Part shown: positions 20,162-53,803 of the stretch, in pieces
Position numbering within the stretch: position 1 is the first letter of the stretch
Layout of the letters: each line of letters starts with the position of its first letter
Origin: Arcticibacter tournemirensis
GTDB lineage: Bacteria; Bacteroidota; Bacteroidia; Sphingobacteriales; Sphingobacteriaceae
NCBI RefSeq assembly: GCF_006716645.1
Contig: NZ_VFPL01000001.1
Span: forward strand, 4,712,001 to 4,776,000
DNA: 64,000 nt
Direction of reading: 5' to 3'
The notes under the pieces: generated by a model
What the model was told of the DNA's origin: nothing
Databases searched by the model: none
The model's input: the letters and a program-made list of their open reading frames with translations, nothing else
Program-made: the position numbers and the translations under genes

Positions 20162-20256
20162 GCCTTATTTCAACCTCTATTTTTTGTAAATTATCCTCTG
20201 CCCTACGCTTTCCACTTTCCAAAAGCTTCGCATCAGCATCGTCAATTAAAACTTTG

Positions 20257-29706: not shown

Positions 29707-29970
29707 TTATTTTAATGAGTCAGTAACATAAGGTAATATACCAATATGGCGGGCACGTTTAACTGCCTGAGCAACTTTACGCTGAAACTTCAGAGAAGTT
29801 CCGGTTAAACGGCGTGGTAATACTTTACCCTGATCGTTGATAAACTTCAAAAGGAAGTTAGCATCTTTATAATCAATGTACTTGATTCCGTTTTTCTTAA
29901 AACGGCAATATTTCTTACGTGTATCCTCTACTTTAGGGGCAGTAACGTATTGAATTTGTTCTCTTGCCAT
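29707..29970 (-). CDS. rpsR: 30S ribosomal protein bS18
   Basis: This is ribosomal protein bS18, 87 aa. The core reads KKYCRFKKNGIKYIDYKDANFL, then RRLTGTSLKFQRKVAQAVKRARHIGILPY, which is diagnostic. The single cysteine in YCRF fits a zinc-free form. The protein binds bS6 in the platform of the 30S subunit, and its gene starts at the stop of rpsF (shared base at 29970), so the two partners are translationally coupled. The operon order rpsF-rpsR-rplI without priB or ssb between them is common in Bacteroidota. Confidence 0.98.
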   Translation of the reverse strand: MAREQIQYVTAPKVEDTRKKYCRFKKNGIKYIDYKDANFLLKFINDQGKVLPRRLTGTSLKFQRKVAQAVKRARHIGILPYVTDSLK

Positions 29971-30344
29971 TATCCTGCTACCTCCTCAGTTGATGTTTCT
30001 GGTTTAGCTTTTTTCTGGAAAGCACCGCTGTGTTTTCTTTCGTTGTAGATCACCGCATGTTTGTCGAGTGCTACGGTTAAGAAACGCATGATACGCTCAT
30101 CACGTTTGTATTCAACCTCCAGTTTGCTGATTAATTCACCCGGAGCCCTGAATTCAGTTAGGTGATAGTATCCTGTAGTTTTCTTCTGAATAGGATACGC
30201 AAGTTTCTTCAAACCCCAATTGTCCTCATGAACAATCTCGGCTCCGTTATCTGTAAGTACACCGCGAAATTTGGTAATTACCTCTTTTGCAGCATCATCA
30301 GATAACAACGGGGTCAGAATGATTACTGTTTCGTACTGTTGCAT
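29970..30344 (-). CDS. rpsF: 30S ribosomal protein bS6
   Basis: This is ribosomal protein bS6, 124 aa. The start QQYETVIILTPLLSDDAAKEV and the motif WGLKKLAYPIQKKTTGYYHL are typical, followed by ELEVEYKRDERIMRFLTVALDKHA-like sequence. An extended Lys/Glu-rich tail (ERKHSGAFQKKAKPETSTEEVAG) is usual in this phylum. It is the first gene of the operon. The promoter TTG-N20-TACATTTG lies 44-74 bp upstream, with the TTG sitting inside a GTATCAAG repeat array, so a dispersed repeat contributes part of the promoter. The bS6:bS18 complex can regulate its own mRNA in some bacteria; no such hairpin was verified here. Confidence 0.98.
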   Translation of the reverse strand: MQQYETVIILTPLLSDDAAKEVITKFRGVLTDNGAEIVHEDNWGLKKLAYPIQKKTTGYYHLTEFRAPGELISKLEVEYKRDERIMRFLTVALDKHAVIYNERKHSGAFQKKAKPETSTEEVAG

Positions 30345-30387: not shown

Positions 30388-30418
30388 CAAATGTAGGAAT
30401 AATATCTATAAGTATCAA
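30388..30418 (-). promoter_or_regulatory. Promoter of the rpsF operon
   Basis: On the minus strand TTG (30418-30416) is followed after 20 nt by TACATTTG (30395-30388), an exact match to the Bacteroidota -33/-7 promoter. The -33 TTG is part of the CTTGATAC repeat array at 30410-30440. Confidence 0.75.
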
Positions 30419-30440
30419 GTATCAAGACACAAGTATCAAG
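30410..30440. repeat. GTATCAAG repeat cluster 1 (upstream of rpsF)
   Basis: AAGTATCAAG occurs as a tandem pair and again after a GACAC spacer, giving three GTATCAAG units in 31 bp. Related clusters in opposite or mixed orientation lie at 30598-30650 and 32561-32640. The dispersed, imperfect units look like an intergenic repeat family. Confidence 0.75.
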
Positions 30441-30597
30441 AGAGAATGCAAGAAATTAGAACCAAGCTCAAAACCCAATGTAACTCTTTTTTACTTCTCA
30501 ACCCTCAGTCTGTGTATAATTTGCCACCTATAGCGCTCATCTCTTAAATATCTACACCCATAACTTTCTTGCTATGCATCTGGTAATCCTTACCCCC

Positions 30598-30650
30598 TGA
30601 TACTTGTGACTTGATTCTTGATACTAGTGTCTTGATTCCTGATACTTGAA
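30598..30650. repeat. CTTGATAC repeat cluster 2 (upstream of dnaX)
   Basis: TGATACTTGTGACTTGATTC and further TTGATACTAG, GTCTTGATTC and TGATACTTG units form the reverse complement of cluster 1. The two clusters, about 160 bp apart, could pair as a long imperfect stem in RNA or DNA. Confidence 0.7.
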
Positions 30651-30713
30651 ACCCGCTACCTGATCTATTCTTCCCTCTTGCACATCCACAGGCTTCTTCC
30701 TATCTTAGTGCCG

Positions 30714-32555
30714 ATGGATAATTTTATAGTGTCGGCGAGAAAATATCGTCCGGTGACGTTCGAAAGCGTTGTAGGCCAGCAACATATTACCAATACTCTT
30801 AAAAACGCTATAAAGAACAATCAGCTTGCACAGGCGTTTTTATTCTGCGGTCCGCGTGGAGTAGGTAAAACCACATGTGCACGCATACTCGCAAAAACCA
30901 TCAACTGCCAGGATCTTGGTCCCGAAACAGAAGCATGCGGCGTATGCGATTCCTGCCGCTCCTTTCAAAACGGCAACTCCTTCAACATTCACGAACTGGA
31001 TGCTGCATCGAATAATTCTGTTGACGATATACGGAGTCTTATTGAGCAAGTTCGGATCCCGCCACAGGCAGGTAAATATAAGATCTATATAATAGATGAG
31101 GTTCACATGTTATCTCAGGCTGCATTTAATGCTTTCCTTAAAACATTGGAGGAGCCGCCATCTTACGCTATTTTCATTCTGGCCACTACAGAAAAGCACA
31201 AAATATTACCCACCATTCTTTCGCGTTGTCAGATATTCGATTTCAACAGGATCAGAGTAGAAGATATGGCCCGTCACCTTACTTCTATTTCGAAGAAGGA
31301 GAATGTAACCTATGATGCCGACGGTTTGCACCTTATTGCGCAAAAGGCCGACGGAGGATTGAGAGATGCATTGTCTATGTTCGATCAGATAGTGAGCTTT
31401 TCAAACAGGAACGTAACCTATAAGGCGGTCATCGACAATCTGAATATACTGGATTACGATTACTATTTCAAAATTACCGACAGCCTGCTTGCAGAAGATG
31501 TTGCCTCTACTCTCCTTATTTTTGATGAGATACTGGTAAACGGATTCGATGGAAATAATTTCATCACCGGTCTTGCTTCGCATTTCCGGAATCTCCTCGT
31601 AGGTAAAGATAACTCTACTTTAAAATTACTTGAAGTGAGTGAAGGTATCCGCCAAAAATACCTTGAACAATCACAAAAAGCCTCCAGCTCATTCCTGCTG
31701 TCGGCATTGAATATTGTAAACCAGTGCGATCTGAACTATAAGAACAGCAAGAATCAGCGGCTGCAGGTTGAACTCTCCCTGATAAAGGTTTGCCATATAT
31801 CTTCAGCTTTAAATTTATCAGCTGCTGCACAAACAGAAGCATTAAAAAAAAAACCTGATACAACAGTAAACACTTCTCAGCAAAAGGAAAACACGACCCA
31901 CCAGAACACACAACAAGCTATAAAAGAACCCATTACAGAAAAAGAGAAACACTTCTCCGAAAACACCGCAATAAAGATCTCAGATCCGGTGCAAACAGGC
32001 ACAGCGATTCCGGCACCTATAAATACGTCCGAAACCGTTGTAAATCCGCCTGTGGAAGCAGAAAGAACGAAGATCGTTATTAAGCCTCTTAAAGCGGCCC
32101 CCTCAATTATCCCTAATTTGAACGACCTGGGTGCGAAGTCGGAAGTCGCCGAGGATGACGCTCCAAAGTACATTTCGGGAGACAGCAGAGAAAGCTTTAA
32201 CGGAGACCAGATGCTTGAGCGCTGGAACGAGTATGCTGAAGAAGTAAAGCGTTTAGGAAAAATTAACCTTTTTACTTTGATGACATCCAATGCACCGGTT
32301 TTGCTTGATAACTATCAAATAGAAGTTATCATAGAGAACCGCATCCAGGATAATCTTTTAGCTATTGAAAAAATAGACTTGCTTAACTTCCTAAGAGTCA
32401 AACTCAGGAATTTCGGTATTGATATCGTAACGCGCCACGCAGAAAAAAGCGATAAAAAGCGTTTATATACCGCTCATGAAAAATACCAGCACATGGCTGG
32501 AAAAAACCCTCAATTGGAAGAATTCCGGAGAAGGTTTAATCTTGAAATAGGATAA
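30714..32555 (+). CDS. dnaX: DNA polymerase III subunits gamma/tau (DnaX)
   Basis: This 613-aa clamp-loader ATPase loads the sliding clamp and organises the replisome. The start MDNFIVSARKYRP (ATG 30714) is the family start; an in-frame upstream ATG at 30678 adds unrelated residues. Walker A is GPRGVGKT (46-53). A four-Cys zinc module spans about residues 64-79 (CQDLGPETEACGVCDSC), Walker B/DExx is IIDEVHML, and SRC near 168 is the arginine-finger motif. After about residue 370 a Thr/Pro/Lys-rich linker leads to a tau-like C-terminal domain. I did not find a clear slippery site for gamma production. Repeat clusters flank the gene on both sides. Confidence 0.96.
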   Translation: MDNFIVSARKYRPVTFESVVGQQHITNTLKNAIKNNQLAQAFLFCGPRGVGKTTCARILAKTINCQDLGPETEACGVCDSCRSFQNGNSFNIHELDAASNNSVDDIRSLIEQVRIPPQAGKYKIYIIDEVHMLSQAAFNAFLKTLEEPPSYAIFILATTEKHKILPTILSRCQIFDFNRIRVEDMARHLTSISKKENVTYDADGLHLIAQKADGGLRDALSMFDQIVSFSNRNVTYKAVIDNLNILDYDYYFKITDSLLAEDVASTLLIFDEILVNGFDGNNFITGLASHFRNLLVGKDNSTLKLLEVSEGIRQKYLEQSQKASSSFLLSALNIVNQCDLNYKNSKNQRLQVELSLIKVCHISSALNLSAAAQTEALKKKPDTTVNTSQQKENTTHQNTQQAIKEPITEKEKHFSENTAIKISDPVQTGTAIPAPINTSETVVNPPVEAERTKIVIKPLKAAPSIIPNLNDLGAKSEVAEDDAPKYISGDSRESFNGDQMLERWNEYAEEVKRLGKINLFTLMTSNAPVLLDNYQIEVIIENRIQDNLLAIEKIDLLNFLRVKLRNFGIDIVTRHAEKSDKKRLYTAHEKYQHMAGKNPQLEEFRRRFNLEIG

Positions 32556-32560
32556 GAAAA

Positions 32561-32640
32561 GTATCCAGACACAAGTATCAAGTATCTGGATCGAGGGGCG
32601 ATTTGGACCATCTTGATACTTGTATCTTGATACCTGATAC
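32561..32640. repeat. GTATCAAG/CTTGATAC repeat cluster 3 (after dnaX)
   Basis: ACACAAGTATCAAGTATC (32571-32588) on one side and CTTGATACTTGTATCTTGATAC (within 32612-32633) on the other form an inverted pair with about 24 nt between them. The shared ACACAAGTATCAAG string is the same as in cluster 1. It may also serve as the dnaX terminator. Confidence 0.72.
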
Positions 32641-32649
32641 TCTTTAAAA

Positions 32650-33102
32650 CTATTTCAGATATTCATTATCATCCTGATCGGCTGCATCATTCTTAGGATA
32701 TCCCTCTTCATCAAGATCGTCCCGGTCGTCTTCAGGAGTTCGGGCGAGAGCCTCATCTGCGTCACTCAGTTTAGCTATTTTACCGCTGTCAATGTGCATT
32801 CCGTACTCTTCTATTTCCGGCTCTATATCATCATTAACACGGCGATACTCGTCTACGGCAGTTAAATTTGCTTCATCATAATCCGAATCGAAATCAGTTC
32901 CGTTCTTTGCCGCCGTATTATAGGGATCAGGATGATCATAATCCTCATCTTCGCTATTTACATCAATCTCAAAACTATCGCTTTCTGCATTATATGAAAG
33001 GTCATCCTTAGATACTTCACCTTTCAGATCCTCTCTCATTCGTTTATCTCTATCGAGGTTCTCATCATTAAACCCGGGATAGAACTTATCCTTATTACTC
33101 AT
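32650..33102 (-). CDS. Very acidic, probably disordered protein, 150 aa
   Basis: This 150-aa protein is dominated by Asp and Glu. Examples are SEDEDYDHPDPYN, TDFDSDYDEANLTAVDEYRR, TPEDDRDDLDEEGYPKNDAADQDDNEYLK. It has no signal peptide, no membrane segment and almost no hydrophobic core, so it is probably disordered in the cytoplasm. The DEEGYPKND/DxDDxxDxDEEGYP-like repeats recall small acidic proteins seen next to housekeeping genes in Sphingobacteriaceae, but I know no function. It lies convergent with dnaX and divergent from icd. Codon use looks normal, and the frame is long for such a biased composition, so it is very likely a real gene. Confidence 0.75.
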   Translation of the reverse strand: MSNKDKFYPGFNDENLDRDKRMREDLKGEVSKDDLSYNAESDSFEIDVNSEDEDYDHPDPYNTAAKNGTDFDSDYDEANLTAVDEYRRVNDDIEPEIEEYGMHIDSGKIAKLSDADEALARTPEDDRDDLDEEGYPKNDAADQDDNEYLK

Positions 33103-34581: not shown

Positions 34582-34635
34582 AAGGTGAAAGCCAAAAGGT
34601 GAAAGGTTAACGTTAAAAACGGAAAGCTGATTACT

Positions 34636-42021: not shown

Positions 42022-42087
42022 GTAGCTGGTGTTATGCTAAAGGTAAAATGGAAATGAGCTACTATCTTTAGCTGCTTTGCACTTAAA

Positions 42088-42113
42088 ACGTATAACTTAT
42101 TACGTATAACTTA
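42088..42113. repeat. Tandem 12-mer ACGTATAACTTA
   Basis: ACGTATAACTTA occurs twice, 14 bp apart, just after the 3' end of the convergent aminopeptidase gene. No function is evident. Confidence 0.55.
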
Positions 42114-42116
42114 ACA

Positions 42117-52690: not shown

Positions 52691-52789
52691 CTGACGAACA
52701 CGAGACGAACAGCTGACGAACAACTGTAAAGCAACTGACGAACAACTGTAAAGGAATTGACGAGCAATCGACAAGGAGTTGACGAACAG
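52691..52789. repeat. Degenerate tandem repeats with GACGAAC core
   Basis: GACGAAC occurs at 52693, 52704, 52715, 52737 and 52781. Around 52713-52755 a 22-bp unit (CTGACGAACAACTGTAAAGC plus AA) is repeated. Related strings (AACGAGCG, GGAACGAATG) continue on the far side of the IS element, so the element was inserted inside a repetitive spacer. Confidence 0.7.
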
Positions 52790-52814: not shown

Positions 52815-52909
52815 GGTTAATGAATAAATCCTGAATTAATTATACACTTCGATTTGTTATTCCTGTTTCGATTATACACTGCAATTTGTTAATCCTGTTT
52901 GAACTATAC
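52809..52909. repeat. 32-bp periodic TATAC array inside the IS end
   Basis: TATAC begins at 52809, 52841, 52873 and 52905, exactly 32 bp apart. The two central units (52839-52870 and 52871-52902) match closely: ATTATACACT, then ATTTGTTA and TCCTGTTT. The first unit starts in the inverted repeat and the last touches the orfB stop. These are likely transposase-binding sites. Confidence 0.75.
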
Positions 52910-53803
52910 AAGGACAAGTCCCTCCTTTTTTGATTTTTTATTTTTCCAGCGTTTCATCAAGACCCCTGCCCGTAAATGCGCCTGCTCAGGGGTTAGGTAA
53001 TCACAACTGGCATGAGGTCTTACCTCATTATATGCCCGGATGCTTTCGGCGATCTTTGTTTTGGTGTCCTCAAAGCCGAGTCCTGAGTGATGCAGATTGA
53101 ATTCTTCTTTGAGAATCCCGTTCACCCGTTCAGCCAGTGCATTTTCATAGGGATCGCCATTTTCGGTCATACTGATGGCAATCCTGCTGCCCAGTAAAAC
53201 CTCTACATACTCTTTGCTGCAATACTGGGATCCCCGGTCGGAATGATGGATCAGTTCATCCTGATAGATCCGCTGGTCCAGGGCCATTCGCAGTGCTTCT
53301 ACACATCCTTCCGCGCTGAGATCTTTATGAAAGCAGTAACCCATGATCTTGCGGGAGTAAGCATCCGTCACCAGGCTGAGATAACCCCATCCGCTGTTCA
53401 TGCGGATATAAGTAATGTCACTCACCCATACCTGCTCGGGACGGTTAACCCTCAATTCTCTCACCAGATTGGCATATTTATGCATCCAATGGCGCGAATC
53501 GGTCGTCACTACCCGCCTCTTTCTGCGACGGATATCCAGTCCGTGCTCCCGCATCAGATCAAATAAATAGTCCCGCCCGATCCGGATGCCATGCTCTGCC
53601 AGCATGGGAGCGAGCATGTAATGTAATTTCAGGGTACCTGTCCGCGGAAGGCCCTGACGGATCTGATGGACATGCTGAAGGGTGATCTCCTCTTTTAATC
53701 CAATATCCTCATAGCGCCACTGGTGGTCATACCAGGCATGGCGGCTCTTGCCAAACAATCTGCACAGCGTCTTTATTCCCATTCGGGGCTCCTCCTGTTT
53801 CAT
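52904..53803 (-). CDS. IS3-family transposase OrfB (DDE integrase core)
   Basis: This 299-aa catalytic transposase subunit has an N-terminal HTH_21-like region (YDHQWRYEDIGLKEEITLQHVHQIRQGLPRTGTLKLHYML), then the retroviral-integrase core. The DDE residues are visible: Asp in WVSDITYIRM, Asp in IHHSDRGSQYCS and Glu in NALAERVNGILKEEF. The C-terminal RPHASCDYLTPEQAH is the usual end. Its ATG overlaps the orfA TGA (ATGA at 53800-53803), so reinitiation may replace the -1 frameshift usual for this family. The inverted repeats around the pair and the intact motifs show a recent, active-looking element. Confidence 0.95.
   Translation of the reverse strand: MKQEEPRMGIKTLCRLFGKSRHAWYDHQWRYEDIGLKEEITLQHVHQIRQGLPRTGTLKLHYMLAPMLAEHGIRIGRDYLFDLMREHGLDIRRRKRRVVTTDSRHWMHKYANLVRELRVNRPEQVWVSDITYIRMNSGWGYLSLVTDAYSRKIMGYCFHKDLSAEGCVEALRMALDQRIYQDELIHHSDRGSQYCSKEYVEVLLGSRIAISMTENGDPYENALAERVNGILKEEFNLHHSGLGFEDTKTKIAESIRAYNEVRPHASCDYLTPEQAHLRAGVLMKRWKNKKSKKEGLVLV

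Follow-up and report, generated by a model that had tools for sequence, protein, structure and literature searches.

The window, a stretch of 64,000 nucleotides of Arcticibacter tournemirensis DNA, carries a ribosomal operon on its minus strand and dnaX on its plus strand, and matches to NCBIfam confirmed these genes as the sequence-only reading had named them. The operon consists of rpsF (30S ribosomal protein S6, 29970..30344; TIGR00166), rpsR (30S ribosomal protein S18, 29707..29970; TIGR00165) and rplI (50S ribosomal protein L9, 29247..29690; TIGR00158), and dnaX (DNA polymerase III gamma/tau; NF011531) occupies 30714..32555. Promoters of Bacteroidetes have a -33 TTG and a -7 TAnnTTTG, spaced 19-21 nt apart. 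The rpsF promoter, on the minus strand, conforms to this motif, with TTG (30418-30416), a 20-nt spacer and the -7 element TACATTTG (30395-30388), which was read from the sequence and whose motif is kept in loci of the family. The conserved dnaX promoter has its -33 TTG at 30678..30680 and a -7-like TATCTTAG at 30701..30708, both on the plus strand. This dnaX promoter (window 30678-30716; TTG-20-TATCTTAG, conserved in relatives) ends 5 nt upstream of the ATG at 30714, and given that distance and its conservation, the dnaX mRNA may be nearly leaderless.

Between these two conserved divergent promoters is placed an element of about 250 bp, referred to here as element 1. Its left arm of degenerate AGTATCA heptads (30406..30441, plus strand) and its right arm of inverted heptads (30594..30662, minus strand, with CTTGATAC running outward to dnaX) fold into a hairpin (z -4.69, folded as DNA), and enclose a core without strand (30442..30593); the dnaX -33 TTG lies just beyond the right arm. 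The outermost unit of the left arm (30412-30419) contains the rpsF -33 TTG at 30416-30418, as had been claimed from the sequence alone, and the -33 box now reads CTTG where the relatives G003, G004, G005 and G001 have TTTG. A query with the core (30442-30592) matched this genome only at itself, with weak matches of 26 and 28 bases in G003 and G004.

A second element lies beyond dnaX, so that repeat clusters flank this gene on both sides (30594-30662 before it; 32559-32587 and 32611-32646 after it), also as previously noted. The left arm of element 2 (32559..32587, plus strand) follows directly after the dnaX stop, its core (32588..32610) has no strand, and its right arm (32611..32646, minus strand) adjoins the stop of a convergent ORF at 32650-33102, for which no NCBIfam match was found; its hairpin has a z of -5.05 (folded as RNA). 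No RNA-family model scored above its gathering score in the window between 29900 and 33000, and two sub-threshold snoRNA-model matches there, the second (E 0.92) covering element 2, were dismissed as chance. The window as a whole has 10 exact matches to CTTGATAC against 1.68 expected, a number reached in 0 of 100 shuffles. Heptad arrays of unrelated sequence are also present in its gene gaps (34582-34617, directly 3' of the stop of the isocitrate dehydrogenase gene; 42075-42116; 20194-20222). The window also has neighbouring tandem repeats of 22 and 32 bp (52713-52767 and 52827-52910) that are unrelated to the heptads.

Age of the rpsF promoter

In G003, G005 and G001 the rpsF-dnaX gap measures 133-135 bp and is without the repeat, and both promoters are present: the rpsF promoter is TTTG-20-TACATTTG and the dnaX promoter TTG-20-TATCTTAG, with TATCTTCG as the -7 form in G003. 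G004 has kept TTTG-20-TACATTTG, and its gap is occupied by another insert, about 260 bp long, in which the heptads differ and 45 positions are N. The named species nearest in rpsF are Pararcticibacter amylolyticus (91%) and Arcticibacter pallidicorallinus (81%), which are probably G004 and G003, respectively, judging by identity to the query and, for G004, also by the same sequence with 45 N. Across the family, TTG-19/20-TAnnTTTG stands before rpsF at 77 of 80 named Sphingobacteriaceae loci (-33 forms TTTG 60, CTTG 13, other 4) and is missing from three, a degree of conservation that lends support to the earlier description of it as the only good promoter before rpsF; L091-L095, which have the other orientation, were left out of the first promoter count and read separately. 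At these same 80 loci AGTATCAAG was found on neither strand. The orthologous gap in G002 has arms on both sides, and its contig (L420) starts in the rpsF promoter spacer, 17 nt from a TTG in the same register as here.

The element is therefore common to A. tournemirensis and G002 and absent from three other same-genus species and, as judged from these orthologous gaps, the rpsF promoter is older than element 1, which did not create it. With the promoter present in relatives without the repeat, and arms present in G002, the element would have entered beside an existing -33 box before A. tournemirensis and G002 separated. The suggestion that a mobile repeat seeded this promoter is thus contradicted by the same promoter in repeat-free relatives and at most family loci. 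A repeat that overlaps a -33 box tempts one to the wrong inference of promoter creation, which is corrected here.

Architecture and placement of the elements

The repeat was correctly described before as dispersed and intergenic: AAGTATCAAGA occurs 86 times genome-wide against 3 for the reversed control, and AGTATCAAG 273 times against 39 (individual places being the 100 of 273 among the matches listed, and likewise the first 100 for G409). It is shown here to be the arm of a larger structure, a heptad-armed inverted-repeat element in which heptads, an unconserved core and inverted heptads follow one another. Arms are about 31 bp in length and usually comprise four degenerate AGTATCA units; the consensus of the arms in this genome, AGTATCAAGTANNTAGTATCAAGTATCAAGA, has four heptads of which the second is variable (aligned on a chosen inner double unit). 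Read 5' to 3', the AGTATCA strand leads away from the flanking gene and into the gap. Counted by exact units, the multi-copy clusters of this genome are arranged as '+-' in 21 cases and '-+' in one, with 33 on one strand only; 23 further clusters are single units, and of 16 single units 8 fall within called ORFs. When arms are sought in nine genomes with a more tolerant model, adjacent arms within 300 bp are '+-' in 93 cases, '-+' in 0, '--' in 24 and '++' in 7, and core length has a median of 40 and a range of 4-185.

Placement relative to genes follows the same polarity. Among one-armed clusters in A. tournemirensis, '+' clusters are nearer to the left gene (7/7) and '-' clusters nearer to the right gene (17/20), and of the multi-copy clusters (n=49), 47 are intergenic, one is within a called ORF and one is at a stretch edge. 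Stops are faced by 42 of 67 boundary-facing arms of this genome, at a median of 7.5 bp (40 of the 42 within 30 bp), and starts by the other 25, at a median of 48 bp (11 within 30 bp). Gene calls, made with a simple script, are rough and miss small genes, among them one noticed by eye after 2438302 that we take to be rpmI. Cluster stretches were selected for carrying the repeat; L071-L090 and the window were not, and the window had been picked by the sequence-only reading. The counts of cluster pairs, consensus arms and one-armed clusters include the same 220-bp gap twice, at C1:6874 and C2:461672. One copy of that gap is close to where contig 1 of the assembly begins and the other to where contig 2 ends, so the two contigs may overlap or have a repeat in common.

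The two arms of one locus share deviations from the consensus modestly above chance (49 vs 34.2, p 0.007), a modest degree of sharing from which it cannot firmly be said that both arms were born in one event; strict arm-to-arm compensation was considered and set aside, the excess being only modest. Elements in G409 are compact, and there the variable heptad is alike in both arms of 16 of 23 elements (10.3 expected, p 0.005), with weaker concordance at A. tournemirensis loci (p 0.01-0.05 depending on the positions used). Comparison of the 86 cores of at least 25 bases from nine genomes (7 shorter cores were left out) gave matches at E<=0.01 for 9 of 3655 pairs, over 12-32 bases. An interior common to the copies, as in MITEs, was rejected on these few weak matches and on the uniqueness of the core in the window.

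The TATCAAG/AGTATCA units are one of several heptad families. In 464 kb of sequence not chosen for the repeat, intergenic autocorrelation is elevated at 7, 14 and 21 (z 6.2, 5.6 and 7.3), and also at 1 (26.4), 3 (6.0), 6 (5.6) and 8 (4.4), so that taken alone it speaks weakly for a period of 7. An array search of 208 gaps, an unbiased sample, returned 27 arrays of period 7 and 0-8 at each of periods 5, 6 and 8-11, and 25 of the 27 are not TATCAAG. Of these other arrays, those near the left gene have G>C over G<C at 7:1 and those near the right gene at 2:14 (p 7e-4; arrays with equal G and C, 1 of 25 in this set, are omitted from polarity counts), such that the G-richer strand runs into the gap, vs 80:82 and 78:97 at array-free gap ends of the same sample. 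Arrays at the 80 named rpsF loci gave 12:1 and 1:4 (p 0.008; array-free ends 82:59 and 66:66), and those in the element-chosen stretches of A. tournemirensis 11:4 and 4:14 (p 0.005; array-free ends 38:30 and 21:51). Array-free ends lean likewise in G003 (16:6 and 8:15), in G004 (16:8 and 8:14) and in the Y1_Tnp set (32:22 and 19:38) and, as this lean is seen in the chosen A. tournemirensis stretches too, background bias contributes to the polarity. At the orthologous loci, period-7 arrays number 0 in 25 gaps of G003 and 6 in 31 gaps of G004.

Spread and turnover in the family

Of 399 family genomes sampled, 127 contain the composite four-heptad unit, AGTATCAAGNNNNNAGTATCAAG; these represent 10 of 25 genera, and copy number over the sample is 0-117 per genome, where individual places per genome are only those among the matches listed. 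A. tournemirensis has 59 copies, G002 has 8, and the other four same-genus species have none. By an eye count, the reversed control of the unit matched roughly 37 of the 399 genomes, with up to 11 matches on one strand, and for that reason low counts in the survey may be chance; this control is not clean, as reversing a heptad pattern yields another heptad pattern. Stretches holding the composite unit were also seen in viral contigs (28 stretches, L312-L339), and at about 580-1170 of L260, a contig start in G018, there are apparent tandem copies of about 100 bp that carry these units.

Segments of the genes flanking 24 of 47 element-bearing gaps in A. tournemirensis were sought in relatives, and 22 of these together with the gap in the window gave 23 comparable loci. 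Median gap lengths at orthologous loci are 211 bp in A. tournemirensis (23), 34.5 bp in G003 (20) and 127 bp in G004 (23). The A. tournemirensis gap is longer than that of G003 at 18 of 20 sites, the exceptions being 332 vs 244 bp and 472 vs 443 bp in favour of G003, and longer than that of G004 at 19 of 23 loci, with the G004 gap longer at the other 4. Several of the G004 gaps carry inverted repeats of other sequence (by eye). Runs of N occur in 8 of the 23 G004 gaps orthologous to elements, as if the assembly had broken at palindromes or the stretches had been masked.

In G002, five of six regions align to A. tournemirensis stretches and arms are present in both genomes at four gaps, rpsF-dnaX among them; in L423 the units are outside the aligned part. 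Comparison of G343 with G409 gave single cases of several kinds. The pair L444/L343 is an orthologous element in which the core is kept, and represents the longest core match; the pair L438/L380 has the same site and arms and a different core; and one gap has a TATCAAG element in G343 and a palindrome of another heptad type in G409 (by eye). As far as aligned loci can tell, these single cases show inheritance together with turnover of the core and, at one gap, of the heptad family. Apparently the same gap is occupied across genera between what we take from protein sequence to be nusG and rplK (A. tournemirensis and G343) and sdhA and sdhB (A. tournemirensis and G370), while a gap beside a presumed phoH (A. 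tournemirensis and G310) is less certain as the same gap, and the alignments L352, L353 and L356 appear to represent different gaps. Between species, the flanks of the elements are too diverged for target-site duplications to be found.

Origin of the elements and comparison with known repeats

Intergenic heptamers of other sequence have been reported in distant bacteria. Rehm et al. 2015 (PMC4692102) describe GGGAATC and GGGGA(T/C)T heptamers in Xanthomonas and Nostoc that are intergenic, prefer four units and include inverted pairs that converge (70 in one and 75 in the other of two Xanthomonas genomes). Regardless of how that gene is oriented, they are closer to the ORF 5' of them, mostly at 50 bp or less from a stop (sense strand) or a start (antisense strand), and 83% are kept in the same gene context in related species; the repeats form G-quadruplexes, to which the authors link the four units. 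Compared with that account, AGTATCA arms likewise have a seven-base period, four units, a nearer ORF on the 5' side and convergent pairs, with exceptions to this placement here in 1 of 22 pairs and in 3 of the 27 clusters with one arm. However, they belong to a different phylum, their consensus AGTATCAAGTANNTAGTATCAAGTATCAAGA is a different sequence without G runs, and here several heptad families share one genome. As AGTATCA has no G-tracts, quadruplexes would not explain the shared placement rule here. MacGregor 2015 (PMC4679880) describes TAACTGA intergenic direct repeats in Beggiatoaceae, Cyanobacteria and some Bacteroidetes, mostly direct with one indirect repeat in the main genome, and proposes a translational role; in F. 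litoralis 12 of 14 sets are 'forward' before starts and one set is reversed just after a stop. The unit of the present family, read as TACTTGA, has the same polarity as these F. litoralis sets; it agrees with TAACTGA at 5 of 7 bases and differs at 2. As in MITEs, terminal inverted repeats are present, but no interior is common to the copies. A literature search, with subscription journals mostly outside its reach, found no report of the TATCAAG element. The TATCAAG/AGTATCA family follows a known, unexplained placement rule, here without G-tracts.

What makes the elements may now be considered. We regard as probable that the heptad-armed inverted repeats in dispensable gene gaps are made by a process at the DNA level and not by promoter selection. 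Elements would arise by insertion or end-extension that copies heptad arms, and would persist because the site tolerates them; promoter selection would not be their source. That several genera have the composite four-heptad unit in common fits copying from a template, the copier being left unspecified, and a directional DNA process at both gap ends would fit best. It is most improbable that CTTGATACTTG is a mobile repeat that supplies genes with a -33 TTG at a constant distance and has been retained for this reason. Among the 239 outermost units of the nine genomes, 5 have exact TAnnTTTG at a spacing of 19-21 (1.3 expected; three in A. tournemirensis, one in G409, one in G002), as do 4 of 265 CTTGATAC units in A. 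tournemirensis stretches (rpsF, 1326377, the unit at 4965107 and C2:335669), vs 1.13 per three-offset window elsewhere, but with one mismatch allowed the excess over the 239 units vanishes (8 vs 8.1). A weak excess of exact sites remains, with rpsF among them on account of the element abutting a pre-existing -33 box, and the predicted enrichment at fixed distance did not clearly appear. Moreover, the rpsF promoter predates the element, a promoter running outward from those boundary-facing arms that face stops would be antisense into the gene, and heptad arrays of unrelated sequence mostly share the matching polarity. Movement in trans by a REP-associated tyrosine transposase (RAYT) would make the elements REPINs, with which, as described in reports on REPINs and REP-BIMEs with RAYT (PMC3116915, PMC2817692, PMC3733652), they share short conserved inverted ends, a variable spacer, an extragenic location, high copy number and patchy occurrence. 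Among high-copy genomes 11 of 15 have a strong Y1_Tnp match (E<1e-20) and 14 of 15 have any match, vs 3 and 7, respectively, of the 14 zero-copy genomes, in a comparison of 29 genomes picked by copy number and not at random. Yet the search, which was for PF01797 only, gave no match in the A. tournemirensis genome and none in high-copy G097; 0 of 36 Y1_Tnp loci among the matches listed have at least two units nearby (4 have a single unit), so that none of these RAYT-type loci is flanked by arms; and the ends here, unlike those of REPINs, are heptad arrays. RAYT is thus an unlikely source, with the greater frequency of Y1_Tnp in high-copy genomes leaving room for help in trans in other genomes.

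Selection for an RNA or DNA hairpin, whether for mRNA 3'-end protection, as a terminator or as an insulator between neighbours, has more to draw on and is nonetheless doubtful. Element gaps of A. tournemirensis fold better than its control gaps (median z -3.85, n 36, vs -1.11, n 60; p 9e-5), N-free G004 gaps at the same loci, of other sequences, fold slightly better (-1.74, n 11; p 0.04), a compensatory-looking change is seen between the orthologues L425/L375, and arms begin right after stop codons. But stability would be about equal with the arms exchanged, yet polarity is 93 to 0; G003 mostly manages without a hairpin at the corresponding gaps (median z 0.3, n 6), most arm deviations are unmatched in the partner arm, and arms occur between divergent promoters too. 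Slippage of heptamers during replication has been suggested in the literature. Plain slippage of simple repeats with a 7-bp step would account for the prominence of period 7 over neighbouring periods in the array search and for an array such as C1:325060, with eight exact units in a row, but would not produce inverted arms paired in a single polarity, nor a composite unit (A-V-A-A) common to many loci and genera, and is improbable as the source. Lastly, polarised arrays could be scars of a telomere-like process, in which the two 3' ends at a chromosome break each have heptads added by an enzyme before they are joined. Such a process predicts features that are observed here: inverted pairs whose single polarity depends on the ends of the gap, whatever the direction of the genes; an unrelated core where the two ends meet; nested families in one gap; and species-specific heptads. 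In arrays other than TATCAAG the G-richer strand runs into the gap, like the GGGAATC rule of PMC4692102. On the other side, for several genera to have a composite unit in common, either existing arms would have to be copied or the template would have to measure at least 31 nt; AGTATCA contains a single G and a single C; and array-free gap ends lean likewise in the smaller sets, which makes this version of a directional process speculative and rather unlikely.

On the preferred reading, of elements made at the DNA level, the effect of element 1 on rpsF transcription would be small, amounting to an altered -33 neighbourhood and a palindrome between two promoters. Heptamers in bacterial gene gaps have so far been described case by case, and the reasons put forward have been quadruplexes, translational control or slippage. 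Here, many heptad sequences are found in one genome, mostly of one polarity, and the main family has no G-tracts; together these facts remove quadruplexes as a general explanation, and the many heptads of one polarity make pure hairpin selection and plain slippage less likely. The polarity of the heptads points instead to a directional DNA process.
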